64,000 nucleotides of DNA, from NCBI GenBank assembly GCA_029532415.1, contig JAQOTA010000057.1, positions 791,882-855,881 of the forward strand, given 5' to 3'. A program made the position numbers and the translations under genes. Numbering within the stretch: the first letter of the stretch is position 1; each line of letters begins with the position of its first letter. Of the stretch, positions 33,842 through 64,000 are shown piece by piece. The DNA comes from Marasmius tenuissimus (taxonomy: Eukaryota > Basidiomycota > Agaricomycetes > Agaricales > Marasmiaceae). The notes beneath the pieces were generated by a model. The model saw only the letters and a list, made by a program, of their open reading frames with translations, did not search any database and was not told the DNA's origin.

Positions 33842-36800
33842 CTAGTGAAATGTTAATCCTAAAGATTGCCTGAACAATTCGAACTTTGTTCTGCCAAGAT
33901 TCTTCGTAAGAAGATCAGCAGGTTGTTTAGCAGTTTCAACGAAATAGATTCGAGTCTTTCCGTGTTCCACTGCTTCCCTGATGAAGTGGTATCGATTGTC
34001 AATGTGTTTTGTTCTTTTATCAGTAGCTTCATTGCTGCTGAGAAAGATAGCGCCTTGGTTGTCGCTAACACATGGAACTGATCGAATAGGGAAGTTCAAT
34101 TCGTTCAATAATGACTTCATCCAGCAAGCCTGACGTGTACAGTCAGATAGAGCCATATACTCTGCTTCTGTAGATGATAATGCAACCGTTTTCTGTTTCT
34201 GAGAGACCCAGCAAACTGGTGCATTGGCAAGCTTTACGATATATCCAGTCTGTGATCGACGATCATCTTTATCAGTTGCCCAATCAGAGTCAGCAAAGGC
34301 AAGTAGTCCTTGGTTGGATCTACCATCGTAAACAAGTTCGTACTTTGCAGTGTGAACAAGGTATTTTACGATGTAAAGTGCCTTCTGGAGGTGTTCCTGA
34401 TTAGGATTGGCTCCATACTGTGACATCTTGATTACAGCAAAGGATATGTCTGGTCTCGTTCCGAGAGCCAAGTAAAGTAATGATCCGATAACTGATTGGA
34501 ATCTATGCCTCATCTCGGGATTAACCTCCCCCTGGTTTTGGGTTGGGTTATAGCCTTCTGGCAAAGGCGTATATGCCGTCTTGGCGTTCAGAACTCCGAA
34601 TTTACGAATTATCTTTTCAAGATAGTCTTGCTGATCAAGGATCAGTCTGCGATTCTTCCGATCTCGAGTAATTCGCATTCGCAGAAATTCTGTTGGCTCG
34701 CCTAGATCTCGGCATTCCCAGATTTTCATGAACTCGCTTTTTAGTCTGTTGACAAGGTTGCGATCAGGACCCATAAATAAAGCATCGTCGACATAGACGA
34801 CGGCAATGACCATATTGCCATTCTTGTTGAAGACATATACGCCAGCATCGGATAAGCATCGTTTGAATCCCAGACGTTTCATGGATTCAGTACATTGACG
34901 CCACCAGGCACGAGAAGCCTGTTTTAATCCGTACAATGCTTTGCGTAACCTCCAAACCTTGCTGGAGTCCGTAACGAAGCCTTCAGGTTGTTCCATGTAG
35001 ATCTCCTCATCTAAGGCACCATAAAGAAATGCTGTTTTAACGTCTAGCGCAGAGATCTCCCAATCTTCAAGCGCTGCTAGTGCCAATAGAAGTCGTACGG
35101 TTTCGAATCGTACTACAGGAGAGAACAACTCGTTATAGTCTATCCCTTGTTTCTGCGAAAATCCTTTCGCAACAAGTCTTGCCTTTTTACGGCCATCAGA
35201 CTTGATGTCAAATACCCAGCGGGATTTCACCGCTTTTCGGCCTTTAGGTAGTGTGACCACATCAAAGACGTTTCTATCCTTGAGTGATTGTAATTCCAGT
35301 CTGCATGCTGCTTCCCAAGATGGTCGTTCATCTTTAGGACGCTTCTGGACTTGTTTGTATGTCCATTCACGAACGTTATCATAACTACTGGCTTGAAGAC
35401 CATATAGTTGATGACCGTTATTCAGCAAGTAAACCAAGTAATTTTCTCCCCCTTGCTGAGCAAGATCGCTCATATCGTCATCTGTGTCCATAGGAGCGGC
35501 TGGATCAGGAACCCTATTTGGTATTGTTTCAGGTTCATTTGTCGGATTAATTTGACTTTGCCAGCGTGCCTGAGAATCGATATCGCGTTCGATCTCAACA
35601 GGATGTCGATTTCCATAAACATTAAACGGACGGTTGGGAGTTACTCTATTTCTTGGAGGGTTTCTTCTGATAGCTGCTGGTGGAGGAGCTCGTAAATTCT
35701 CCCACTCATCATAGTCAGCTTGACGAAATCCAAATGGATTTGTCGATCCAGAAGAACCAGCAGACCGTGGATCCGGACCATACTGATTAGGATTGTGATC
35801 GGAGCCTTTCGGTGATCCGAATCCATCAGTACTTGGATGATTGCCGTTGTGCACATCATCGCTTTTATCATCCGGGATAGGATCCAAGGGAGGATCTCCC
35901 CCAGGCTGATGATCGTCATCATCTGATCCTGGTGGAGGTGGAGGATTGATAAAATCATCATCATTGTGATGATCTTCGTGGCCATCATATGGGTACGTTG
36001 GAAAGGGTATAGACCGGACAGGTTTGTCGGTTTTATCAAACTCTATGGATCCGGGCACTTCTTTCTGACATTTAGGAAACCAGTTCTCATCGAAAACTGC
36101 TTGTGGAGTAATGTATACAGAATTGTTGGTTGTTCGAAAGAATCGATAAGCTTTTGATCCGTTCTCGTAACCAATGAAGATCATTGCTTCGGAGTGTGGA
36201 GCAAGCTTATTTTTACGTTTCGGTATGTATGCATATGCGCCACAACCGAACGTCCTGAAGTATGATACATCAGGCTTCTTATTTTCAAACAATTCAACTG
36301 GAGTTCTGTATTTCCTCGAACGAATCGGAGTTCTATTGTAGATATGGACGGCTGTGAGAATTGCAAATTCCCACCAGTTTTCAGGCGCACAAGCCTGAAA
36401 GCGCATAGCTTCAGATTTCTCTCGTAGTGTACGATTAAATCTTTCCGCTCGTCCATTCTGTTCATGCACGTTGGGAGAACCTCTTTGTGGAAATATTCCT
36501 AGAGAGTTATACCAGTCCCATTGTTCATTTGAAAAGAATTCTCCCCCTCGATCAAAATGCACATTTTTGACCTTTTTATTAGTCTGGCGCTCTACAAGAG
36601 CTAGCCAATTGCGCAATTTCTGATCTGTATCACTCTTTTTACGAATTGGATATACCCATCCGTATGATGTTGCATCATCGAATAAGGTTAATGCATATTC
36701 GTTTTGATAGTAAGAGCGAGTTGGATATTCTATCAAATCACCGTGCACGAGCTCAAGAGGCTCCTTAGCTCGTTTCGAGGATAAAGGGTACGATTTGGCA

Positions 36801-39800
36801 ACCATTTTGCCTTTGGCACAGCCTCGGCATGGTTTCGTTTCTTCCTTCGAAGTAACCAACTTCGTTGGAAGCCCTTTAACATTATCCATTAATTTTCCTA
36901 AGACTCTGGGATCACAGTGTCCCATACGTCTATGCCATAATTCAGAAGTATTGAAAGATACAACAGATGTGAAGGAAGTTTCTCCCACAAGAACCTTCGC
37001 GTTCATCCATCGTAAAGGATCATCTTTATGGCTTGGGTAAAAGCTCATTAAAAGAGAATCATCTTTCTTGCTCCGGATCGAAGTCTCTGGAGAGTCCAGT
37101 ATAGTATAGTAACCTATACTCCGGAACTTCCCACTAGAGATTAAACGATGTGGGCTGTCGGGATTATACATCACTGGGTATAACTTTGTGACTTGCGTCA
37201 CTCCTGCGCTATTGGTGTGTCGGATGAGGACAGTACCATAGCCTACTATTTGCACATTTGCTTTATCACCCGCTGATGTAGTAAGACCTATTGGCATTTC
37301 CAAAGTCTGATAGTCTGAGAAATCCGTTTTATACGGAGTCATATGCGCTGATGCCCCACTATCAAGTAGCCAGGCATTTCGCGTATTTCTCACTTCACAA
37401 TCACTCGAAAATGCAGCAGAAAACGACTTATATTTCGTCGTTGCATATACAGAAGTAATACTACATTTCCTTGGTACTGTGTTCCTTAGGATATGATAGT
37501 TCTGCATCGAGGATTTAGTGAAAGTTTGACTATTAGAACTTTGAAAAACTTGCCAGTCTCCACGATCGTTGCTTTCAGCCCAATCGTTATCAACTCCTTC
37601 AAGGCCATCTCCATAGTCACCATCATCAAAGTACCGTTCATGCCATTGAAGCGGTTCTTGATTCTGACTTTGGAATCCTTGACGAACAAGAAGCTCTCGT
37701 CCTGTTCTGAGTTCTTGTTGATAACGCTGATTAGCGGCCTCTTCAACTTCTATCCAAGCTTCCAATTGGCGTCTATAGTTCTGCCATTGAACGAATCTCG
37801 TGGCTTGATATGGCTGATTGTTATTGACAACCAAAGTGATATTGCCAATACTTGTGCCATCAGCAACGTGTAAAGGCGGTCCATTGGTCCTTAGTCCAAT
37901 TACTGCAGGTCCGTAATTCTCAAATTGAGAGTTTCGGGGATCACTTGGAGATGTAACCCAAGGGTCAACCTCAGGTTGTTCATCTACCGGACTAAGTCTT
38001 TCCGGTTGATCCGGTGGAGCAGTGGTTGGACGAGAAGGTACTTCAATGTAATCCTCTTCTAAGGATTGTATGCCATAAAAAGATTCGGGAGAACTTGGAG
38101 GTGTGTGGACAATTTGGTCCTGCCATTGTCGTACTCTAGGTGGTGTAGTTGCGGGGCGATTTATGTATTCATGGGTAGTAGGGATTGGAGATTTGGAACG
38201 ATTAAGTGACTCGGCTAATTCCATGAAATCTCCAGGGTATGTTCTTGGTCGTTCATTGAAGCGACCACCCTCAAGTTCTCTTCGAGGAATATCAGCTTGA
38301 GTCATGGGAACAGACATTCTAATGTTGTTCATCCATTTATACAAGTGCGTGTGCCAGTTATGAACATCTGGAAGACTAAGGTGAGGGATAAAGCGAACCC
38401 AGCGCCTATTAAACCCTGGTTGTCTCCATTGAGATGTTCTAAATTGACTCGCTCTTATGTCTGTTGTTCCAAATAACCATTTCCCTTCAAGACCAAGCTT
38501 GACTAACGAATGCCAGAAGATAGGATTCATCACTTGTATAGGAAGTGTGAAGTTCTTCTTATTAACTCGGAAAGCTTCATCCACCGAAGTTGAACGAGGG
38601 TTTTTCACTCGTTGAACAAAATCTTCAACGGTGCTGATCCAATTTTTGTTATTGATTTCAGCTATAACCGTTGATAGGTGTTGAAGGTTCCAGGTTTGGT
38701 ATTCGTAATGAAGCGTGAACTTGGTGTCTTCTACTGTTTCCACATGTAATATCCTTTGTTGTATGCGCAATTCATGAAGAGCTTGACGAGGTGTCATATT
38801 ATGCACTGCATCTCTTCTAATAGCATACATAACGACATATTCTCTGGTCCTAATCAGAATCCAGATCCAAAGGTTGTGGTCTGGTATACTGCGTATTAAT
38901 TTGTAACGCATTCTGATCATGGATTCCTTTAATGTCATGTCGTTAGTCGTCTGATCTCCGAAGTCTCGGAACTCTTCGACGACAGGAATTGGGAGTCTAA
39001 TCCCATTTATTATATGTGGTCTATTATTCCTAAGGTTAACTCGTCGCATCATGTTGTCATGTTGTTCTTTGTATTCTTGTAAGAATCGCCATTCAACTTT
39101 TCTATTGATGAGAGGTGGCTCTTTTATGTCATCTCCATCTTGAGAATAGTTTTCTGGTCTGAACAAGTGAACAAGATCGGCGTGGTTCCTAGGAAACATA
39201 GAACTTGCCCATGGTCCATAATCGTCAGGAGGTGTAGAAACAGTTACACGTATGTCTTGTTGTGTGGGTGATGCTACTTCGAGATTCTCACCTTGGTCAA
39301 CTTCGTCCGCAGGCGAAGTATGATTAGGTGTCACCTCTCGTTGTGGCATTGTGAAGATAATTTCTTCATTACTATGCGCGCCATAAGAGTATGCAGAACA
39401 TGTATGACTATCATTTGATGAATTATCAGATGAAGAGTCACTATCAGGTTCCGTCGGAGTATCAGAGATGTACACCAAAGATGGTATCTCATCTCCATCG
39501 CTGTCTATGTTTGAATTGGAAATAGTAGCCGAAGCAATAGCTTCTTCTACTTGTCGAACCTGTTCATCTAGTTGAACAGTTCGTCTATTGTTCCATTCTT
39601 GAACAGAGATGTGTCGTGCTGGACGATCTTCTCTGTCAGCAGCGATTCTCTCTTCTAGGCGTGCTTGTTGAAGATCATACGTGTTTTGGAATGGATTTGG
39701 TGCAGATGTGCTACCAGTGGGGTAGTGGTAGGACATATGAACGTTAACTGGCCCAGCCATTTCCCGTTCAAAAACTGAGCTGATTTGCTCGTTTACTGCA

Positions 39801-40921
39801 TTAATTCGTTTCTGGTATTCAGAAGGTTTCTCAGAAGGTTCAAATACCGCAGTGTGCGATTGTTGCCCCCCTTTTTGAGTATCCTTCTTCTTTCCTTTGC
39901 CTTTTCCTTTGCCCTTTCCTCCTTTCTTCTTTCCTTTCTTGGAAGAAGATCCACCTTGGTTCTGATTGTTCTGGTTCTGGTTATTGTTTTTATTATTGTT
40001 CTTCTTTTGATTTGCAGAAGTACCAGAACGAGACTGATCAGACCATTTAGGAGGAGCGTTAAATCTATTAACACCAGAAATTTTGGCGTTATGGGCAGTA
40101 TAGGCAGCAGGACCAGAATGAATCCCATTCCTTCTATTCCATTCATTCGTAATTGCAGCAATCAAATCGGTAGGTTTAAGTTCTTCCTTCTTCATACGGG
40201 ATACTTGCTGCTTGAAAAGCTGCCAGCGCTTTTCATTAAGCTTAGCTGTGATCATAAGGCACAGCAAGTCGTCCGAAATATCTACTCCATGATCCTTAAG
40301 TTGGTCCCGAACAGTCAGCATGTAACTGATTCCAGGGACTGGATTAAGGTGTTCAGGAAGTTGGACGTTATGCAAGTCCGTATATAGATTCATCATCTTC
40401 GAAGAAGATTGAACTCCAAACGTAGATTTGAGTTTAGATAAGGTTGAAATTACCGAAGTTTTATCAACATGCGCGTCGTGAGCACGACGAGTTCGCATTT
40501 TGATAATACCAATTACTTTGTTACGCCTAGAAGTCCACTCAATTAGAGCGGTAGCTTCCCCTGAAGTAGCAGGAGAGGATGTTTCTGGCATTTCTTCATC
40601 CAAGGCTTGAGGTATGCCTTGGGTAAAGAGGTAACCCTCAAGTAATCGGTACCAATCTTCGAAATTCAAACCATCATCTAGCAAAACTGGAATGATACTA
40701 ATTCCTCCTGACCCAGCAGGAAAGCTGCTGTCCGCAACCTGAGAGTACAATGGTTCCGTACTGTAGTTATAAACTTCTACAGAATTTTCTACTTCCGTTC
40801 CCAGAGTATATCCCGGCGTATTGCGAACAAACGTCGTTGGAGGATTACCACTTGGGGAATGAGAAGCAGACCTTGATCCTGATTGAGACATATTGAGGTC
40901 TGCCAAAAGTCCCGTGAGCAT
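33842..40921 (-). CDS. Copia Gag-Pol polyprotein, 2359 aa
   Basis: One uninterrupted frame from ATG 40921. The N-terminal part is Gag-like, with a Lys/Gly-rich basic stretch near residues 330-360 and no obvious CCHC knuckle. The protease motif LLDSGASAHM is near residue 1190 and the pre-integrase HRRMGHCDP near 1332. Integrase has its first Asp near 1413, DRGGEFF near 1459 and GRAERFNRT near 1494. Reverse transcriptase has FLYGALDEEIYMEQPEGF and YVDD near 2044. RNase H has ADSDWATD and SSTEAEYMAL near 2220-2260. The order integrase-before-RT defines Ty1/copia. It is some 800 residues longer than usual copia polyproteins; the extra length lies between Gag and protease (about 480-1150), including a globular segment at 600-870. 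Every catalytic motif appears intact. Confidence 0.96.
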   Translation of the reverse strand: MLTGLLADLNMSQSGSRSASHSPSGNPPTTFVRNTPGYTLGTEVENSVEVYNYSTEPLYSQVADSSFPAGSGGISIIPVLLDDGLNFEDWYRLLEGYLFTQGIPQALDEEMPETSSPATSGEATALIEWTSRRNKVIGIIKMRTRRAHDAHVDKTSVISTLSKLKSTFGVQSSSKMMNLYTDLHNVQLPEHLNPVPGISYMLTVRDQLKDHGVDISDDLLCLMITAKLNEKRWQLFKQQVSRMKKEELKPTDLIAAITNEWNRRNGIHSGPAAYTAHNAKISGVNRFNAPPKWSDQSRSGTSANQKKNNNKNNNQNQNNQNQGGSSSKKGKKKGGKGKGKGKGKKKDTQKGGQQSHTAVFEPSEKPSEYQKRINAVNEQISSVFEREMAGPVNVHMSYHYPTGSTSAPNPFQNTYDLQQARLEERIAADREDRPARHISVQEWNNRRTVQLDEQVRQVEEAIASATISNSNIDSDGDEIPSLVYISDTPTEPDSDSSSDNSSNDSHTCSAYSYGAHSNEEIIFTMPQREVTPNHTSPADEVDQGENLEVASPTQQDIRVTVSTPPDDYGPWASSMFPRNHADLVHLFRPENYSQDGDDIKEPPLINRKVEWRFLQEYKEQHDNMMRRVNLRNNRPHIINGIRLPIPVVEEFRDFGDQTTNDMTLKESMIRMRYKLIRSIPDHNLWIWILIRTREYVVMYAIRRDAVHNMTPRQALHELRIQQRILHVETVEDTKFTLHYEYQTWNLQHLSTVIAEINNKNWISTVEDFVQRVKNPRSTSVDEAFRVNKKNFTLPIQVMNPIFWHSLVKLGLEGKWLFGTTDIRASQFRTSQWRQPGFNRRWVRFIPHLSLPDVHNWHTHLYKWMNNIRMSVPMTQADIPRRELEGGRFNERPRTYPGDFMELAESLNRSKSPIPTTHEYINRPATTPPRVRQWQDQIVHTPPSSPESFYGIQSLEEDYIEVPSRPTTAPPDQPERLSPVDEQPEVDPWVTSPSDPRNSQFENYGPAVIGLRTNGPPLHVADGTSIGNITLVVNNNQPYQATRFVQWQNYRRQLEAWIEVEEAANQRYQQELRTGRELLVRQGFQSQNQEPLQWHERYFDDGDYGDGLEGVDNDWAESNDRGDWQVFQSSNSQTFTKSSMQNYHILRNTVPRKCSITSVYATTKYKSFSAAFSSDCEVRNTRNAWLLDSGASAHMTPYKTDFSDYQTLEMPIGLTTSAGDKANVQIVGYGTVLIRHTNSAGVTQVTKLYPVMYNPDSPHRLISSGKFRSIGYYTILDSPETSIRSKKDDSLLMSFYPSHKDDPLRWMNAKVLVGETSFTSVVSFNTSELWHRRMGHCDPRVLGKLMDNVKGLPTKLVTSKEETKPCRGCAKGKMVAKSYPLSSKRAKEPLELVHGDLIEYPTRSYYQNEYALTLFDDATSYGWVYPIRKKSDTDQKLRNWLALVERQTNKKVKNVHFDRGGEFFSNEQWDWYNSLGIFPQRGSPNVHEQNGRAERFNRTLREKSEAMRFQACAPENWWEFAILTAVHIYNRTPIRSRKYRTPVELFENKKPDVSYFRTFGCGAYAYIPKRKNKLAPHSEAMIFIGYENGSKAYRFFRTTNNSVYITPQAVFDENWFPKCQKEVPGSIEFDKTDKPVRSIPFPTYPYDGHEDHHNDDDFINPPPPPGSDDDDHQPGGDPPLDPIPDDKSDDVHNGNHPSTDGFGSPKGSDHNPNQYGPDPRSAGSSGSTNPFGFRQADYDEWENLRAPPPAAIRRNPPRNRVTPNRPFNVYGNRHPVEIERDIDSQARWQSQINPTNEPETIPNRVPDPAAPMDTDDDMSDLAQQGGENYLVYLLNNGHQLYGLQASSYDNVREWTYKQVQKRPKDERPSWEAACRLELQSLKDRNVFDVVTLPKGRKAVKSRWVFDIKSDGRKKARLVAKGFSQKQGIDYNELFSPVVRFETVRLLLALAALEDWEISALDVKTAFLYGALDEEIYMEQPEGFVTDSSKVWRLRKALYGLKQASRAWWRQCTESMKRLGFKRCLSDAGVYVFNKNGNMVIAVVYVDDALFMGPDRNLVNRLKSEFMKIWECRDLGEPTEFLRMRITRDRKNRRLILDQQDYLEKIIRKFGVLNAKTAYTPLPEGYNPTQNQGEVNPEMRHRFQSVIGSLLYLALGTRPDISFAVIKMSQYGANPNQEHLQKALYIVKYLVHTAKYELVYDGRSNQGLLAFADSDWATDKDDRRSQTGYIVKLANAPVCWVSQKQKTVALSSTEAEYMALSDCTRQACWMKSLLNELNFPIRSVPCVSDNQGAIFLSSNEATDKRTKHIDNRYHFIREAVEHGKTRIYFVETAKQPADLLTKNLGRTKFELFRQSLGLTFH

Positions 40922-41925
40922 ACTCTTCAAATATAGAAGGGTGGAGCCAAGAGAGTGTCAATCGACGAAGGCTTCTAAGAAGCACCCATAAATAAATAGG
41001 GTTCGATGCACACCGAGAAATGCTCCAAAGGTCTAGGACTTTTAACAGGCTGTATGCGTCAAACAGATCATGGGGTGTACCGCGTGCAGGTAGTGCAGGG
41101 GAGTTAATCTGGTTACGAAGCCCTGCCCAATTGCTAGGGTCTTACAACGTTCCCAGTGTGTATCGGTGTCTGGTGTCCCATCGTGCTATCTGGTCTCAAC
41201 CCCAGACTAGCGAAAGTATGAGTGATCAGCCCATACTAACCGAATGACCCATAGAAAGTTATTATTAAACCTAGTCTTCCATATGAATTGAGTTCATGCA
41301 CCCTCTGCCTTAGGCATGTCGGTGACCAGAAAGCAATCATAGGTGAGCTAGAGTTTAACAATAACGTGGAAGAGAGGGGTCATCGGGAGGGGAGTCCCTG
41401 TACATACTAAAGTGGCCATGTGATACCGTAAAAACTGTATAGTATCAAAACCTAGTTGTAAGGAGATCAAATCTCCCAGCATGTATGTCATGCCCGGTCT
41501 TTCGACCGTCAGGAATCATGGCGAGTTGGTTTATAAGCACAACCCCATAGACCCCTAAACGATGCCTCATGGTGAGGATCATCGCCAACCATTGGTTTTC
41601 ATCGGCATTAGGCAGTGATAATTTAAGATCAAAGCCCAATCCGGGTTATCAGCAGGGAGACAGAGCCGCATGTGCGGATAGGTCTGTGCCGAAGAAGATG
41701 AAGCCAAGACAGTATGTACATGCGTTCGTGCAACATGCAACAGTACAGGGACATAGTGGATAGGTGTAAAGGGAACTAACAACCCTTTGACCTTGACACC
41801 AGACGATGACAAGCCCGACATCGCTAGAGACTTCCATAACCCATGTAGGTTACAGGTCGTCCGCTAGGATGGTGGCGACACACGGGAGCTAGGCTACTCC
41901 GATCATAACATCGACCTGACCACCG
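40922..41925 (-). other. Copia 5' leader, about 1 kb
   Basis: Non-coding sequence between the primer-binding site and the gag-pol ATG. No long frame is present on either strand. Its length would suit packaging signals or internal translation control, but no structure is evident by eye. Confidence 0.7.
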
Positions 41926-56069: not shown

Positions 56070-56544
56070 TGTAGCGCCTGCTATTAAAAAGCAGCTTCGG
56101 AGCCTTGTTTTTGTGCGATTTTAGCATAAAACAGATAAGAAATGACTAGGTAATACGAGTACTAGAGCGAGTCCCGAGCGGCTAGTAAAAGGCTCAGATC
56201 CTAGCATAAGGAGAGAATAGCGCCTCGGAGGCGTCTCTCCTTATCTCTGAAAACTGTAGGAGTCGTATAACTGACGAAAGTATCACTTCGGAGGCACGAC
56301 TAGGACCTGTAGTCATAACAAGGGAATATCTCCAGTGGCTCGGAGGCATAGTATTAGGGATTAGAATAACAGAATCAGACTTGACGAAGACCCGTACTAG
56401 TAGGGATAGACAGAGGAGGTCACCGCGGAAGCATGAATGGTCGGAAAACGAGACTAAGTCGAGCCTCAGAAGCTTGGTATAAGGTCGAGGCCTCGCTTTG
56501 GAGGCATGATGGATTCAAGTATACTAGGTATACTACAGGTTACG

Positions 56545-57239
56545 CTAGTCATCCATATTGGCTAGAGCTACCTCGTCCCAACCGAAGTAATTATCTACGT
56601 CGGAATCTTCAGGATAATAAGAATCAATGAAGGTTTCATGATCTAGATAATCGGTATAGAATGGATCGCATAAAATAGGATTATAGAAAGAAAAGGATCG
56701 AGAGAGCCAACGGCCCATGACAGGGGAATACTGGAAGAAAGAGAGCTTGGTATAGTCAAGCTTCGGAGGTGCTGGGCACTCAGCACAGCTGGCGACGGCG
56801 TCGATCCAAGCGTTGACGGCTCCAGGAGTACGAGCGGTTTTGAAGTCGAGGAATCCCACTCGAGCAATGGACTCGGCAACCATGTCGATGATAGACCTGG
56901 CGTCGTGAGGAATGAAGTGGTCAAAGGTGTCCTCGCAGAGATAGATTTCGTCCTGGATCATGTCGTAACGAATCACGTAGCCCCAGTAGACGGATCTGTG
57001 GCGACTGAGGAAGAACTGCTGGAAGATGATTCCGAGGATAGCTTCTCGTTCTGCGTCAAGTGGAATGGGTAGGATGATGCGGCGCTCCTTGATCTTATCA
57101 GAGTAATCTTCTGGATACCACCAGAGCTTATACAACTCTGGAGAGGAAGTCAGAAGGCCGCCTCGGAATCTAGAAAGTAGAAAGGCTTACTATAGAGTAA
57201 GTTGCGAAAGTGGTCTTCAATGTTATGCAAGCGTGCCAT
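56545..57239 (-). CDS. Antisense spliced gene inside the gypsy LTR, 213 aa
   Basis: Two minus-strand exons (57239-57191 and 57137-56545) join in frame through a 53-bp GT-AG intron (GTAAGC to CTCCAG). The product is rich in aromatic and acidic residues (YKLWWYPEDYSDKIKER, YWGYVIRYDMIQDEIYLCED, DVDNYFGWDEVALANMDD) and shows no known domain. It lies wholly within the presumed U3 of the LTR and opposite to gag-pol. Such antisense or additional genes are rare in fungal elements. It could also be a host gene captured by the LTR. Lack of stops over 200 codons and a good intron support coding. Confidence 0.55.
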
Positions 57240-58087
57240 AGTACGCTCGGGGAAAAGTAAGCAAGGAATTGGGACAACCTAGCACTTGCTTTTACTGACC
57301 TCTGGACTGGCCGCTGAAATGGAAATTTTACTTCGGAAACTAGGAAATTAGCGCTTCGGAGGCGTGGATCCGAACCAGGCACTGGGCGCTAAACAATGAT
57401 CGAGAAGTGATTGAAGGAGTTGCACCGTCAAGGTGCCTCCCTTATACTCGTACATGGAGATATTGACTGTACTAAGGGCATAGTTGGTGCTGGTGGCAAA
57501 ACACAGTGCTCAACTGCACTGGGAGGCAAGGGACTAGAAAGAAAGGAATGGTGTACCAAGGAATCGAGTAGGAGTTCTGGCTGAACCATTGAACTATTAC
57601 CCGGTATCCAAGGCACCAAGATTGGATATAGTGGGGCGGCCATATGGATGGCAGGACCTCAGAATTATCCGAGCTACGGAAAGGACATCGACCTGGCTAT
57701 GAACGGCTGGGTAACTCCATGAATATAGGCATCTAGTAGCACTTCGGAGGCAGGTACTTTGCTTCAGACGAAGGGAGTATATGCTTCGGAGGCAAACAGA
57801 ACAGGATGACCTACGACGATTGAAGGGTCTAGAACCGGAGAATCAATGCTGCGGAGGCAGATAGGCAGAACGGAACCATCGATAGGAGAGACCCGGAAGA
57901 AAAGAATGTTAGAGAATGTTCGAGGCTGATGATACTTCCGAAGCAAATTATTGGTTTTGACTTTGGGGTTCAAAAGCGTAGATTAAACACAAAACTCTCC
58001 AAGTATATTCCAAAGTAGGTAGTTTATGCCTCCGAGGCATGGTTTATTCGATATTTGTACAATTAGGTAGAATTAGAGCCTCCTAGG
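57240..58087. other. LTR U3 sequence with dispersed motif
   Basis: No gene is seen. Copies of the CTTCGGAGGC-like motif occur near 57330, 57355, 57742, 57782, 57849, 57935 and 58027. Confidence 0.5.
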
Positions 58088-58096
58088 GTATATAAG
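58088..58096 (+). promoter_or_regulatory. TATA box of the gypsy LTR
   Basis: GTATATAAG, on the same strand as gag-pol and about 660 bp before the proposed LTR end. It is the likely core promoter of the element. Confidence 0.6.
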
Positions 58097-58762
58097 CAGT
58101 GGGGTTTTCATCAAGAATCCCCAAGCAATCCGTACGATTAGTATTCAGAGGATACGAAGCTATTCCACTTGTTGGGTAGTCAGTTGACTCGGGAGCGCTT
58201 CTGGAGAGACATTAGAACGGAATAGAACTTTGTTTGCCCAAACCTAGAAAATCCATTGAACACTTGCTTGACCTTGACTTTGCATTGTTTGTCTGCGACG
58301 CCGACTTGACTGGCTGAGCTATTGTTGAACTTCCGAAGCTAATTGGGCTGAGGATATTGTTCGCCGTTGACAGTTGGTCTTCGGTCATTGACAGACTTGA
58401 TTGGAGTCTTATTGCCATTGTTTGATTTGATTGTCTTGTTGCCCCTCGCTGTTCGAGTGGTTCTGAAGCTAGTTGAAGCCTAAGAACGCACTTCCGAAGC
58501 ACCAAACAAAACTCTACGCTCCCCGAAGCAACCTATAAACCTCTCTTCCGAACCCCACTTTTGACCTCCGAACTGGTTTCAGAGGCGAAGCTACCTTAGT
58601 TGGATAGTTTCTTGAGTCAGATTTCCTTCAGCCTACTATTGCAGTCTGGCTAAGAGCGGAACCTACGATCAACGCCGATCCCCGATTCCCGCACCCTTCA
58701 GCTACACTCTTGAGTGTTGGGAGGATTTGACCTACGAGTTAGATTTTATTATACACCGCGAG

Positions 58763-58783
58763 TGGCGCTTTACATCTGGAGCC
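58763..58783 (+). promoter_or_regulatory. Primer-binding-site-like segment
   Basis: TGGCGCTTTACATCTGGAGC begins with TGG, as primer sites complementary to a tRNA CCA end do. It lies 7 bases after the proposed LTR end. I cannot name the tRNA. Confidence 0.4.
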
Positions 58784-58879
58784 CGACCTTGAGGGAAGGA
58801 TCTAGTTTAGAGTGTACTAGTGGTAGATAGTGAAGTCTGTTCAAGAATTATACAACTTTTGCTGTTTCGTCCAAGTTAG

Positions 58880-60997
58880 GAAGTCACCGTACATTCACAC
58901 CGATTGAGCTTCACTCCGAAGCTCAGTTATTCAAAAGAGATTGCTCCAGTTTTAAGGAACAAAATTCCTAGAGACTCGGCGACCTCATCTGCAGCTGGTT
59001 TAGGGTCAGTCAACGACTACCTGCCTACCAGAAGAACGAGAAAGAAGAATCCGGTTATTCCGGGAGCTTTTGAAGAAGAAACACCTGTACAGGAGGAAAC
59101 CACACCTCCAAAGATCCACGTTTCGGGATTTGGTTCTGAAGACTCAGAATTAAGCCCTATCACAGATTCGTCTGAGGAAGTAGACAGACAAGTCAGATTT
59201 CGGGACGAAGAGTCATTGACGCAGGAACTACCTCCGGCAGGACTTGGCATACCAGAGTCGGACTTTACTTTTCAAACTCCTCAGGAACGAGTGAACCTCG
59301 ATCTTAACACCGCAATCTTGGGACTTAGATTTCTCAATATCATTAGAAAGAACGACGAGCTTCAGAAGAAGATAATTCGGAAACGAAGTAAGAAGGACCC
59401 AGAGTTTCGCCTAGAACAAAAGAGAAAGGCAGCGCTTCGGGGCTTTCATCATCAGAAGTTTAAAGTTCGTATACTACCACCAGAAGAGAAATCAGATTCC
59501 GAAGACACGATGACAGAACACGTAACAAGAGAAAGTTGGAGAGATCTGACTGATGCACAGAAAGAACAGGTGGCGTCTGAAAAGGGGAAGGCGCATAAGT
59601 TCCCAGTGGCGTTTCAGGGCAATACGGAAGACGAATGGCTCTGTTGGTTCGACGATGTCGAAGCAGCCTTTGTTGCGAAAAAGATCACTATGGATGAAGC
59701 GAAGATATTTTGTGCTATTAGTAGCATGAGTTACTCGCTTCGGAAGGAAGTAGAGACTCTTAAATCGAGCAGAGGGCGCAGCTGGGAGGAATTCAAGAAA
59801 GAAATTGAAAGTGCATGGGCTATAGACGCCAAGTATGGAAGCCATGAAGCTCTGAGGAGGGTCATTGATGAGTTCGCTACGATGTCCCTACAAGTGTCAG
59901 AGTCTAGATTCAATGCCTTTGTTCGGAGGTTCCGAATGGAGGCGGCGAAACTTCAGAAGCCTCCGGCGTTGCTGTCCAACAAAACACTAGTAGATATGTT
60001 TCTGAAAGCATTTGATTATATGGCAATGAAAGCCATTGTGGATGGATTGCAGATTAGAGCCCAAATGAAAGCTCAGACAGGGGGAGGTAATGCGGAAGAA
60101 AGCGAAAGACGGAAGCAGGACCCTTACACCCTGGAGGAAGTGATTGGTCAGGCGGAGATGATCATGAAGTCTGGGAGCGGATATACCTACATGCAGACCT
60201 CCTCGGAATCAAAGATGAAGAGGGACGCTGCGGAGGTACCAGTACCGAGAGAGGTTCGGCAGGGTACACTTAGAACACATGGAAAGTCTGAACCGGCGAA
60301 AAAGACGGAATTGGACGATGATACCATGAAGGTGCTAGCAAAAGTGGATACCTACGATACGAAGCTGAAAACCTTCCAGTCGGACATGGAACAGTTCCAG
60401 ACTAGAGTGATTGAGAATCTGCAGAAATCCGAGAAGACGTTGGATAATAATTTGGTAGAACTGCGAAAGCTGATCATGACTTCGGCAACAAGAGAAGCGC
60501 CGAAGGCATCCTATTCTAGTGGGTACAAACCACCTATGAAGACGGGAACCGCAATGCTGGGGAAAGCCGCTCAGGATATGTCGACAGGAACTACTTGTTT
60601 CATGTGTGGCAAAACCGGGCATATGGCGCCAGAGTGTGATTACCAGGAGGAATGTATCAAGAAAGGATGGATACGGAAGGGTGATGGAGGAAAGTACGTC
60701 TTATACGATGGCTCTCCAGTACCTTTTGTAAGATTCGGCGAGAACAAGCAGAGATGGGAAATCATTAAGGAGAAAGCTGAAGCTAACCACTGGCCTAACA
60801 CCAGTGGAGGGGAAGACCCTACGGCGGTATTGTTCGCAACTGAGCAAGAACCAGGCCGGGAGAGCTTCATGCAGAAGACAGCCCCTGATATATCGGATCA
60901 CCCGTTAATTAAGGAAATGGCTGGCAGACTTGGATCGATGGAGGATGTGATGGAATCCTACCTTAATATGGAGTCAAAAGATGAGTCAAAAAACTAG
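58880..60997 (+). CDS. Gag of the Ty3/gypsy element
   Basis: The open frame runs from 58880 to TAG 60997, but its first ATG is at 59510, about 200 codons in. The upstream part still reads like protein (PTRRTRKKNPVIPGAF, acidic and Ser-rich stretches). Initiation may be at a non-AUG codon such as TTG 58904, or a leader exon is spliced on. Downstream comes a capsid-like helical segment (EWLCWFDDVEAAFVAKKI near 59630) and one zinc knuckle, CFMCGKTGHMAPEC, near 60600. Gag packages the RNA into cytoplasmic particles. The last codons before the stop form the slippery heptamer A_AAA_AAC. Confidence 0.85.
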   Translation, partial: EVTVHSHRLSFTPKLSYSKEIAPVLRNKIPRDSATSSAAGLGSVNDYLPTRRTRKKNPVIPGAFEEETPVQEETTPPKIHVSGFGSEDSELSPITDSSEEVDRQVRFRDEESLTQELPPAGLGIPESDFTFQTPQERVNLDLNTAILGLRFLNIIRKNDELQKKIIRKRSKKDPEFRLEQKRKAALRGFHHQKFKVRILPPEEKSDSEDTMTEHVTRESWRDLTDAQKEQVASEKGKAHKFPVAFQGNTEDEWLCWFDDVEAAFVAKKITMDEAKIFCAISSMSYSLRKEVETLKSSRGRSWEEFKKEIESAWAIDAKYGSHEALRRVIDEFATMSLQVSESRFNAFVRRFRMEAAKLQKPPALLSNKTLVDMFLKAFDYMAMKAIVDGLQIRAQMKAQTGGGNAEESERRKQDPYTLEEVIGQAEMIMKSGSGYTYMQTSSESKMKRDAAEVPVPREVRQGTLRTHGKSEPAKKTELDDDTMKVLAKVDTYDTKLKTFQSDMEQFQTRVIENLQKSEKTLDNNLVELRKLIMTSATREAPKASYSSGYKPPMKTGTAMLGKAAQDMSTGTTCFMCGKTGHMAPECDYQEECIKKGWIRKGDGGKYVLYDGSPVPFVRFGENKQRWEIIKEKAEANHWPNTSGGEDPTAVLFATEQEPGRESFMQKTAPDISDHPLIKEMAGRLGSMEDVMESYLNMESKDESKN
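60988..60994 (+). promoter_or_regulatory. -1 frameshift site, gag to protease
   Basis: A_AAA_AAC sits exactly in the gag frame (TCA AAA AAC) directly before the TAG at 60995. After a -1 slip the frame continues CTA GAA CGA CCA AGG into ATG 61009 of the protease frame without a stop. This is the classical X_XXY_YYZ form. Confidence 0.75.
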
Positions 60998-61008
60998 AAC
61001 GACCAAGG

Positions 61009-62508
61009 ATGGAGCGCAGAAGCTCACCTCGGAAGAGTTCTGTGACTCCGGAGGTTCCACAGGTAGTAATACCACCAGCCCCACGAGCTATTAGAGAGTG
61101 GAAGCGGAAGCAAGAAAATAAAGAAAAACCACAAAAACAAGTTAGAATTTCTGAGCCTGAGGTTTCTGTTTCTGTTCGACCTAATACACCGCCTCCGAAG
61201 CGTAGGGAGATTAGAGCGGTTGTACCGACAATTGATACCCATGCATCTTCAGATGAGGAGGATGAACCCCCCGAGGAATCTGTAAGTGTAAACCCCGTAG
61301 GAGGAAGGACTGGGCGAGATAAGGACGCGACCCCAGTGACTACGCCACCTCCTTCGGTGAAACGACCTTTTGACGATGTACCGGCTGTAACCAGACCGGC
61401 TATACCCAGAGATCACGTCGTCTCCATTAGCGATGTTGCGGGGAATGTTCGTCATGTCACCCCGAACACGGATACCCTAAGACTTTCGAAGGGACCACAC
61501 AGGCCGCAAGGTCCGGGCGCTTCGGAAGCACCCAAAAGGACAATTATTAAGTCCACGGATGTGGAGGAAGAAATCGTGGAGAGGATGATGAAGCAAGAGC
61601 TTTCTGTGACGCAGGAAGAGTTGCTAGCCATTTCACCAGGAGTTAAGAAGATCTTCCAACGCAAAGCTCGAAATCGAGCCATTCAACGTACTTCGGTGGA
61701 ATCTTTTATTCAGGAGATTGCCTCCGAGGACGTTGAGAAAGTTGAGAAAGTGATTGGCATGGAAGCGTCGTACGTTGTTCAAGTATCTGACATGGACCTG
61801 GATGAACAGTTCGAGGTTCTGAAGGTCGCAGTCGGAGATTTGCCCGCCGGGGCGGTGGTTCAGAAGGACATTACCGAAGTGTTTCGACAAGATATAGAGT
61901 CGAGCGACCGCAGCAAGATCATTATTGTTGCGAGCACCTCGGATGCACTGAGGTCGGTATATCCTAAAATCAACCAATCGGATGAGGTAGAAAGCATCTT
62001 GGATAGCGGGTCGCAGATCATTGCCATGGATATGATGGTCGCTGTTGGGCTCGGTGTACATTGGGACCCAGACACGGTTATTCATATGCAGGGAGCAAAT
62101 GGACAGTTGAAGAAGACGAGGGGACTGGCTCGTAATGTGCCTTTCCGCTTCGGCGACTTGACATTCTACTTGCAACTGCACATCTTAGATAGCGCACCGT
62201 ACAAAGTGCTACTAGGACGGCCATTTGACGTATTAACAGAATCACAAATTCACAACTATGCCGATGGGTATCAGGAATTGACCATCCGGTGCCCTAACTC
62301 AGGACAGAGGTCAACAATAGGAACATATCCGAGGGGACAGGGTAAGAAAATAGTGCCTCGGAGGACTGAGCACACCCTGAAAGACATGGGACGACCCTCG
62401 GAGGAACAGCAATCTGCAGAGGAAACGGAAAGCGATAAGGAACAGCCTCAAGATAATAACTACTCTTCGGAGGAGGCTGGAAATTTTCACGATACCTTGA
62501 TGAACTGA
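61009..62508 (+). CDS. Protease ORF of the Ty3/gypsy element, 499 aa
   Basis: Open in the -1 frame relative to gag, with its own ATG at 61009. The first 300 residues are basic and Pro/Ser-rich. A retropepsin core follows, with ILDSGSQIIAMDMMV (catalytic Asp at 62002), then HWDPDTVIHMQGANG and YKVLLGRPFDVL, the ILG/LLGRPF pattern of gypsy proteases. Retropepsins act as dimers and process the polyprotein. It ends at TGA 62508, 19 bases after a second slippery heptamer. It could be made by frameshift fusion or by reinitiation, since its ATG is 12 bases after the gag stop. Confidence 0.85.
   Translation: MERRSSPRKSSVTPEVPQVVIPPAPRAIREWKRKQENKEKPQKQVRISEPEVSVSVRPNTPPPKRREIRAVVPTIDTHASSDEEDEPPEESVSVNPVGGRTGRDKDATPVTTPPPSVKRPFDDVPAVTRPAIPRDHVVSISDVAGNVRHVTPNTDTLRLSKGPHRPQGPGASEAPKRTIIKSTDVEEEIVERMMKQELSVTQEELLAISPGVKKIFQRKARNRAIQRTSVESFIQEIASEDVEKVEKVIGMEASYVVQVSDMDLDEQFEVLKVAVGDLPAGAVVQKDITEVFRQDIESSDRSKIIIVASTSDALRSVYPKINQSDEVESILDSGSQIIAMDMMVAVGLGVHWDPDTVIHMQGANGQLKKTRGLARNVPFRFGDLTFYLQLHILDSAPYKVLLGRPFDVLTESQIHNYADGYQELTIRCPNSGQRSTIGTYPRGQGKKIVPRRTEHTLKDMGRPSEEQQSAEETESDKEQPQDNNYSSEEAGNFHDTLMN
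62481..62487 (+). promoter_or_regulatory. -1 frameshift site, protease to pol
   Basis: A_AAT_TTT lies exactly in the protease frame (GGA AAT TTT). After a -1 slip the frame continues TCA CGA TAC CTT GAT GAA CTG, crossing the protease TGA (62506-62508) out of frame and entering pol, which is open to the window end. Confidence 0.65.
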
Positions 62509-64000
62509 TCCCAGATCAGGGAGAGGTGGCCGTAGTACTCGAAGCGGATGAAGCTGGGCAAGTCCATATAACGAAAGTCAAGATTCCAGATCAGAGAAAA
62601 TTTGATGATAGAGAGCTTGCGGAAGCATTTATGTTGGCCTCCGAGCCAGAGGAAGCTGAAGCAGCAGAAATGCTCGATGCGTACGTCAACCAAACCATCG
62701 AGGATGGAAAGTGTGTATATAGTACTTGGCGTGAGAGTCTGGATCGGGAACCTCCGAAGCGGACTGTCTCCTCGTACATGCAGAGACCACTACCTGAGAG
62801 GAAAGGACCACCGCCTCGGAAGATGGTGTCTCGGCCTAGTACTGTCCCTAGATCAAAGTACAAAGCTGTATTTTCAAAGAAATTCCCAAAGGAACTTGAT
62901 AGACTAAGAAGGTTCGAGATTAGAAAGCTCGGAGCCTGGAGAAAACTTATGGACGTCTTAGATTTCATATCGGACTACGGACAAACAGAACTGATAGATG
63001 CTTTTGAACGAAACCTTGGGACTGACCCCTCCAAGACTGGATTCGAGGGCGAGCTAGCGAAAATCATTATTCGAGAGCTTGCGGCTCGGAAACAACGGGA
63101 ATCCAAGCCCGGCCAGCTACCTAACCTGTTTTCGACGTTACTTTCAGAACTCAGTGACTTAGGGAGGGTCTTTGAACAAATAAAAGAAATTAGAAAAGAG
63201 CATATGCAGTTTGAGGGGTGTCAGTTGGACGGTGAGGAATTAACGGAGTTCGTGAGTAATGATACTCTGCATCAGGTTCTTGTCTACGGATGGTTGCGAC
63301 ATCCAGATAACAGTGCTGGAGTCGGGAAGGTGCTTCGGATGTTTGAAACCATGGATCAGATTTGCGAAGAAGGTGGCTCGGAGGCTAATGTCGCCGAGGT
63401 ATTCTCGCAGTTTGAACTGGGCTCCGAAGACCTACAAACTGTGAAGTCGGTGTTTGGGAAATACAAACCGGTTGCCCTAAAGGTAAAACCTGTCAAGGCT
63501 CCGCTGCCGGGAGAGTTCAGAGTGGAAAGGAATATTGAAGGGGATCCACTGGCGGACCTACCTGAACTGCCTATTCACCCTCCTGAATTCCAACCGACAG
63601 GCCGATACACTGAAGAAAGAAAAGCCATCATAGATCAGAACCATGCGGAAGAGTTTTTATGGAAAGAGGAGCGTAAATTGATGCACTATCTGATGATGGT
63701 GCATGAGTCTGCGTTTGCCTGGAGTCCGGAGGAAGGGGGATCGTTCAGAACCGACTTCTTCCCACCGGTCAAGTTTCCGGTTCTACCCCACACACCTTGG
63801 GTAGAGAGAAACATACCAATCCCACCCGGGATTTTCGAACAAGTATGTGGCATTATTAAAGATAAGATTAATGCGGGGGTCTATGAACCTTCGAGTTCCT
63901 CGTATCGATCGAAATGGTTTTGTGTTCTTAAGAAGGATGGAAAGAGCCTCCGACTTGTGCATAGCTTGGAACCCTTGAACGCTGTGACTATTCAGTATTC
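62487..64000 (+). CDS. Pol of the Ty3/gypsy element (start of reverse transcriptase), incomplete
   Basis: Read in the third frame, codons are open from the slip site to the last base, over 500 codons. About 400 residues of linker precede the N-terminal reverse transcriptase region, which has WVERNIPIPPGIFEQV, VYEPSSSSYRSKWFCVLKKD and SLRLVHSLEPLNAVT. This is the fingers part of Ty3/gypsy RT (Y-x-P-S-x-S-x-x-x-x-x-x-F-V-x-K-K-D). The catalytic FADD/YxDD motif, RNase H and integrase lie beyond the window. No stand-alone ATG starts the frame near its beginning, which supports production by frameshift. Confidence 0.85.

Follow-up and report, generated by a model that had tools for sequence, protein, structure and literature searches.

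How does a long terminal repeat (LTR) retrotransposon make its protease and its polymerase when gag, protease (pro) and pol lie in three different reading frames? The question is raised by an element at the end of a 64,000-nucleotide stretch of the Marasmius tenuissimus genome (GenBank assembly GCA_029532415.1, contig JAQOTA010000057.1, positions 791,882 to 855,881; hereafter the window, meaning this whole stretch). The element lies on the forward strand, and its 3' part is cut by the contig end, which is also the end of the window. A sequence-only reading of the window had proposed a Ty3/gypsy element in which gag, protease and pol are connected by two tandem -1 frameshifts, each on a heptamer of the form X_XXY_YYZ. 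Judging from comparisons of the sequence within its genome, we put the probability at roughly 0.8 that the element is a giant Ty3/gypsy LTR retrotransposon, active recently, whose expression relies on two successive programmed -1 ribosomal frameshifts.

Two frame changes, each with a single slippery heptamer

Read directly, gag, pro and pol occupy three successive -1 frames. The gag frame ends with TCA AAA AAC TAG, the TAG lying at 60995-60997. The pro frame, at -1 relative to gag, is open from 60985, behind a TGA at 60982, to a TGA at 62506-62508, and the pol frame, at -1 relative to pro, is open from 62460, behind a TAA at 62457. The overlap of adjoining frames, with stop codons counted, is 60985-60997 (13 bases) at junction 1 and 62460-62508 (49 bases) at junction 2. 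Both junctions are therefore as the sequence-only reading had described them, with protease at -1 behind TCA AAA AAC TAG, pol in a further -1 frame, and no stop across either junction.

Inside each overlap stands an X_XXY_YYZ heptamer in the register of the upstream frame: A_AAA_AAC at junction 1 and, within GGA AAT TTT (62479-62487), A_AAT_TTT at junction 2, where 18 bases separate GGA AAT TTT from the pro stop. The register had been read correctly, and each heptamer proved to be the only such site in its upstream frame. In-register sites were found at 1/695 positions in gag, 1/505 in pro and 0/510 in the window's part of pol, and the single sites of gag and pro are the two in the overlaps. 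When codons were resampled, 0.65% of trials put a heptamer in overlap 1 and 2.1% put one in overlap 2; the product of both rates is about 1 in 7400.

In the mechanism that we propose, most ribosomes would end at the gag TAG and yield Gag. A fraction would shift back one base at A_AAA_AAC, producing Gag-Pro, and a fraction of these Gag-Pro ribosomes would slip again on A_AAT_TTT and make Gag-Pro-Pol. The three products would thus be made in falling amounts and, because only a fraction of the ribosomes that made the first slip would make the second, protease should be more abundant than polymerase.

Heptamers and frames are shared among copies

A search of the genome with 1.5 kb of the region in question gave 16 matches, some of which are pieces only. 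The first heptamer, AAAAAAC followed by TAG, was kept in 11/11 places containing junction 1, and the second, AAATTTT, in 13/13 places containing junction 2; two pol places, C30:47958 and C35:875k, are outside these counts because junction 2 could not be aligned in the loci fetched. The aligned copies have identical frames at both junctions. The sequence-only reading had named two outcomes that would speak against it, namely copies in which a single frame carries gag, pro and pol, and heptamers that vary freely between copies. We found no copy of the first kind, substitutions in the older copies tracking all three frames, and the invariance of the heptamers is the opposite of the second.

Seven of the places are near-identical. 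The 705-codon gag frame is open in 5/6 of those that reach gag, and pro is open throughout in 4/7. In each of the remaining three, a run of six C (61267-61272) is one base short, and two of them have further gaps; the loss in the C run may be real or may be a sequencing length error. A pol frame of 1566 codons is open at three places.

Differences between copies fell largely at third codon positions. Between the window copy and the copy at C30:353k, third positions accounted for 39/47 differences in gag, 39/57 in pro and 20/30 in pol, and against the copy at C10 for 41/65, 47/74 and 23/39, respectively. The ratio was weaker against the more degraded C35 place (gag 42/74, pro 47/87, pol 47/85), which forms two rows of the comparison through the use of two overlapping loci. 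Among the near-identical copies, 22/22 gag, 3/5 pro and 2/4 pol differences were at third positions. This excess in each frame indicates that all three frames have been under selection as they stand. Together with the kept heptamers, it argues that the layout does not reflect damage to one copy.

A nearly unchanged stretch past the first heptamer

We compared the older copies base by base over 59483-63900 in 434 comparison windows. The 81-base window starting at 60986 ranked first of the 434 as the least changed, with 2/290 cells differing compared with 783/14789 overall, and both differences belong to one copy. Over 60997-61075, 0/90 third-position cells were changed, compared with 196/1916 in pro; the binomial odds for this are 6e-5, a simple estimate that ignores shared ancestry. 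The two windows at junction 2 ranked 43 and 61 of 434, which is only moderate conservation.

We considered a second overlapping coding frame, a short frame-0 open reading frame (ORF) from the ATG at 60981, as the cause of the conserved stretch and rejected it, because, of the four older copies that align at this point, two are changed at 60982. Elsewhere in pol, over 62814-62928, no third-position change was seen among the old copies aligned there.

Diverged families B and D share the pro-pol shift only

The same genome holds diverged relatives, families B, C and D, of this element's own family, which we call A. Family B, at four places, is 41-47% identical to family A in the protease and 53-56% in reverse transcriptase (RT). 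The only copy that can be read in this part is L041, where the protease end is itself disrupted; there, zinc knuckle and protease share one frame of 459 codons. In 4/4 copies pol is at -1 at the corresponding site, whose sequence is T_TAT_TTT three times and G_TAT_TTT once. Family D, also at four places, is 34-38% identical to family A in RT. Two of its copies were read upstream, and in both of them gag and protease form a single frame, of 838 and 840 codons. The step into pol is -1 in 4/4, at G_GAT_TTT (three) or G_GGT_TTT (one) with a stop directly after. One frame for gag and protease, followed by a -1 step before pol, was thus the arrangement in all three readable copies of the two families.

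We searched for H-type pseudoknots with a simple script that uses stacking energies only, without loop costs, and compared each result with 200 shuffles. All four family D junctions (L068, L069, L070 and L071) have such a pseudoknot in a common register, matched by 0/200 shuffles in each case. In the alignment of the four, 93.4% of 76 cells pair, and compensatory changes occur in 4/19 pairs, all in the first stem; the covariation score was reached by 2/500 shuffles. Slid versions of the structure pair at no more than 49%, a comparison that is biased toward a structure derived from the same sequences.

Since the pro-pol shift is common to families A, B and D, it is most likely old and ancestral in the group. 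The gag-pro shift was found only in family A, and the simplest account is that it was most likely gained there, within the linker that joins zinc knuckle and protease; families B and D show the pro-pol shift only, which would make the two shifts different in age. The gag-pro shift of family A sits in the linker from the zinc knuckle to the LLAISP motif of pro. The corresponding linker of family B includes a lysine-rich stretch; no alignment is significant there, and our guess is that such a stretch would be a natural source of A runs.

Family C (C27, C62, C26 and C64) was left out of the layout comparison because its protease homologue could not be placed by eye. In the pieces fetched, its members L059 and L076 have a first frame of 1016 codons and two long overlapping frames before RT. 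An RT-alignment search of IMG/VR and of bacterial and archaeal genomes gave 90 and 63 pattern matches, among which no relative was confirmed.

Weighing the two-shift reading

The sequence-only reading had suggested folding the bases past the heptamers for a stem or pseudoknot. We saw a moderate stem at junction 1 and a weak one at junction 2, and no pseudoknot rose above chance. The first 50 bases at junction 1 fold better than shuffles (2/200 as good), with 10/200 and 13/200 as good for longer or shifted windows.

Several results count against two programmed shifts or against their inferred history. The first concern RNA structure. No significant H-type pseudoknot was found at junction 1 (47/200 shuffles as good) or junction 2 (110/200). 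The stems at junction 1 are only moderate, and the best 50-base fold starts at the stop codon itself. At junction 2 the fold is weak (Table 1), with a shorter window matched by 27/200 shuffles, and windows of 80 and 110 bases are no better than shuffles (z +0.2 and +1.1). The second concern the copies. Several near-identical copies have broken frames, as noted above for pro; third positions make up only 18/40 differences in the shorter C35 pol locus and 9/18 in the pol of C7:685k; 2/62 shared pro differences create stops; and the substitution counts are not independent, because the old copies share ancestry. Windows free of third-position change form another run in pol, starting at 62814-62850, so the junction is not the only place that has them. 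Finally, the family B site is not a standard heptamer, its pseudoknots are weak (for the two copies examined, 9/200 and 29/200 shuffles did equally well), and family C gave no readable comparison.

The main rival for pro is that ribosomes terminate at the gag stop and reinitiate at the ATG at 61009, 11 bases past it, leaving a -1 shift for pro-pol only. This ATG is in frame with pro and near the gag TAG, and the low-change stretch spans both it and heptamer 1. Reinitiation leaves unexplained, however, why the only in-register heptamer among 695 gag positions falls in the 13-base overlap, and a Pro synthesized separately from Gag would lack an obvious way into the particle. For pol it is implausible, because the first pol ATG is at 62631, so that junction 2 still needs another route, most simply a shift. 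We therefore regard reinitiation as unlikely.

It is considerably less probable that gag is joined to pro by splicing, or by slippage during transcription of the A run, in place of ribosomal slippage. Six consecutive A stand at the first site, but such a run is short for slippage by RNA polymerase; this explanation would not account for A_AAT_TTT, and a low-change stretch that reaches well downstream of the A run would be left unexplained. That the three frames are indels in a dead master copy is hardly credible, for although several copies carry frame breaks elsewhere, the places holding the junctions have common heptamers and adjoining frames, third positions are in excess in each frame in recent and old copies alike, and in-register heptamers stand at two separate junctions; damage to a single copy is rejected by the conserved heptamers and frames and by the same excess.

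Comparison with known systems and possible origin

The gag-pro site of mouse mammary tumor virus (MMTV) is A_AAA_AAC, as at junction 1 here. MMTV and jaagsiekte sheep retrovirus (JSRV), both betaretroviruses, resemble the element in having gag, pro and pol in three frames reached by -1 steps, whereas the layout of human T-lymphotropic virus (HTLV) is -1/+1 (excerpted text of PMC1224870). Of the two viruses that the sequence-only reading had cited for two -1 shifts, MMTV is thus an apt parallel and HTLV is not. According to excerpts of the review PMC5009743, some retroviruses use two -1 shifts, the first being more efficient, pol is at -1 to gag in 28/51 animal LTR elements, and the MMTV gag-pro site has a pseudoknot. 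Junction 1, by contrast, is without a significant one. The element also differs from MMTV and JSRV in being an LTR retrotransposon whose pol relatives are of the Ty3/gypsy type, and its gag-pro shift was apparently gained independently of theirs.

Some Ty3/gypsy elements, sushi-type and Drosophila elements for example, use a single -1 shift. The element shares with such one-shift elements the order protease, RT, ribonuclease H (RNase H), integrase and a pol reached by a -1 shift, and differs from them in having the protease in its own frame and two shifts. Families B and D resemble it, with related pol, a protease 5' of pol and a -1 shift between the two; they have a single shift, gag and protease being in one frame in the readable copies, and family D has a clear pseudoknot. 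Skipper of Dictyostelium reportedly has gag, pro and pol as three ORFs, and is said to have a stop codon, not a -1 shift, between gag and pro. In the excerpted part of PMC5006619, Skipper-1 is drawn with two ORFs, the protease being with pol. A literature search over titles and the starts of abstracts gave no Ty3/gypsy element with two -1 shifts; most subscription papers were not covered by it, and the absence proves little.

These comparisons suggest a joint proposal to which we give even odds. The retroviral -1/-1 layout would have arisen independently in Ty3/gypsy, when a one-shift ancestor gained a gag-pro shift and so uncoupled the dose of protease from those of Gag and Pol, and the ancestral pro-pol shift would have been driven by a pseudoknot, at least in family D. 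Two serial -1 shifts characterize some retroviruses, and the reading proposed here would place them in a Ty3/gypsy element, beside one-shift relatives in the same genome. Setting the one-shift and two-shift relatives side by side allows the gain of a second shift, and the effect of protease dosage on a retroelement, to be examined directly. The four family D junctions, with their covarying pseudoknot, already form a natural series on which frameshifting can be studied.

Parts of the element

The order protease, RT, RNase H, integrase agrees with the assignment to Ty3/gypsy (Metaviridae), as does the LTR with its TG and CA ends and a TGG 2 bases after it. Position behind the LTR and a TGG start are what we take to mark a primer binding site, and we labeled the putative site in Table 1 by this rule. 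TATA-like sequences were seen in the 5' LTR. The aspartic protease in pro matches Pfam Asp_protease_2 (E 3.8e-6). In the pol protein, YVDD is at residue 599, RNase H at 740-875 and the integrase H2C2 motif at 1084-1137, with Pfam matches for RNase H and the integrase zinc-binding domain. The RT had no Pfam match, and it aligns with the RT of family C (RVT_1, 34.4 bits, above the cut-off) and of family D (22 bits, below it).

Table 1. Positions of the element's features in the window
Feature	Positions	Strand	Remarks
5' LTR	56070..58774	+	2705 bp, TG...CA; ends of repeat matches; recurs at many other places
Probable primer binding site	58777..58794	+	Starts TGG, 2 bases past LTR; from position and TGG start
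gag frame	58880..60997	+	705 codons open; first ATG 59510
Zinc knuckle CFMCGKTGHMAPEC	60596-60637	+	In gag frame
pro frame	60985..62508	+	507 codons; protease match and third-position excess
Slippery heptamer 1, A_AAA_AAC	60988..60994	+	Immediately 5' of gag stop TAG (60995-60997)
Stretch past heptamer 1	60995..61060	+	Minimal change between copies; moderate stem-loop
Protease motif ILDSGS	61996-62013	+	In pro
pol frame	62460..64000	+	Cut by contig end; elsewhere (three places) 1566 codons, including RT motif, RNase H and integrase
Slippery heptamer 2, A_AAT_TTT	62481..62487	+	18 bases 5' of pro stop TGA (62506-62508)
Stretch past heptamer 2	62488..62537	+	Weak stem only; z -1.68, 10/200 shuffles as good

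The element is a giant, with a 2.7-kb LTR and a length of about 20.4 kb in the C30 copy, whose LTRs span 1827671 to 1848031; about 6.6 kb there separate the end of pol from the 3' LTR. In the region past pol (L014:4774-6501 and beyond), most of a 1.5-kb piece recurs at 9 places, and by eye the region appears to hold antisense stretches resembling exons.

The gag frame has 210 ATG-free codons upstream of its first ATG. The codon usage of this part, from 58880, is coding-like (0.124, compared with about -0.17 in the other two frames and 0.197 in gag itself). It points to initiation at a non-AUG codon or to a spliced leader, and the ATG-free part may hold a third control at the start of the element. 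The 735 bases past the LTR, 58775-59509, have no ATG in any frame, and a candidate 3'-splice-like sequence was noted by eye just 5' of 58880.

Two short motifs are frequent in and around the element. Over 57700-64000, TCGGAGG occurs 14 times on both strands, compared with 1.0 expected from dinucleotides, and TTCGGAGG occurs 7 times, compared with 0.3 expected. Positions 1-56000 of the window show no excess of either (7 versus 6.2 expected and 1 versus 1.7 expected, respectively). The window also holds a Ty1/copia-type element on the minus strand at 33842-40930, with a single frame of 2362 codons that matches Pfam RVT_2, rve and Retrotran_gag_2.

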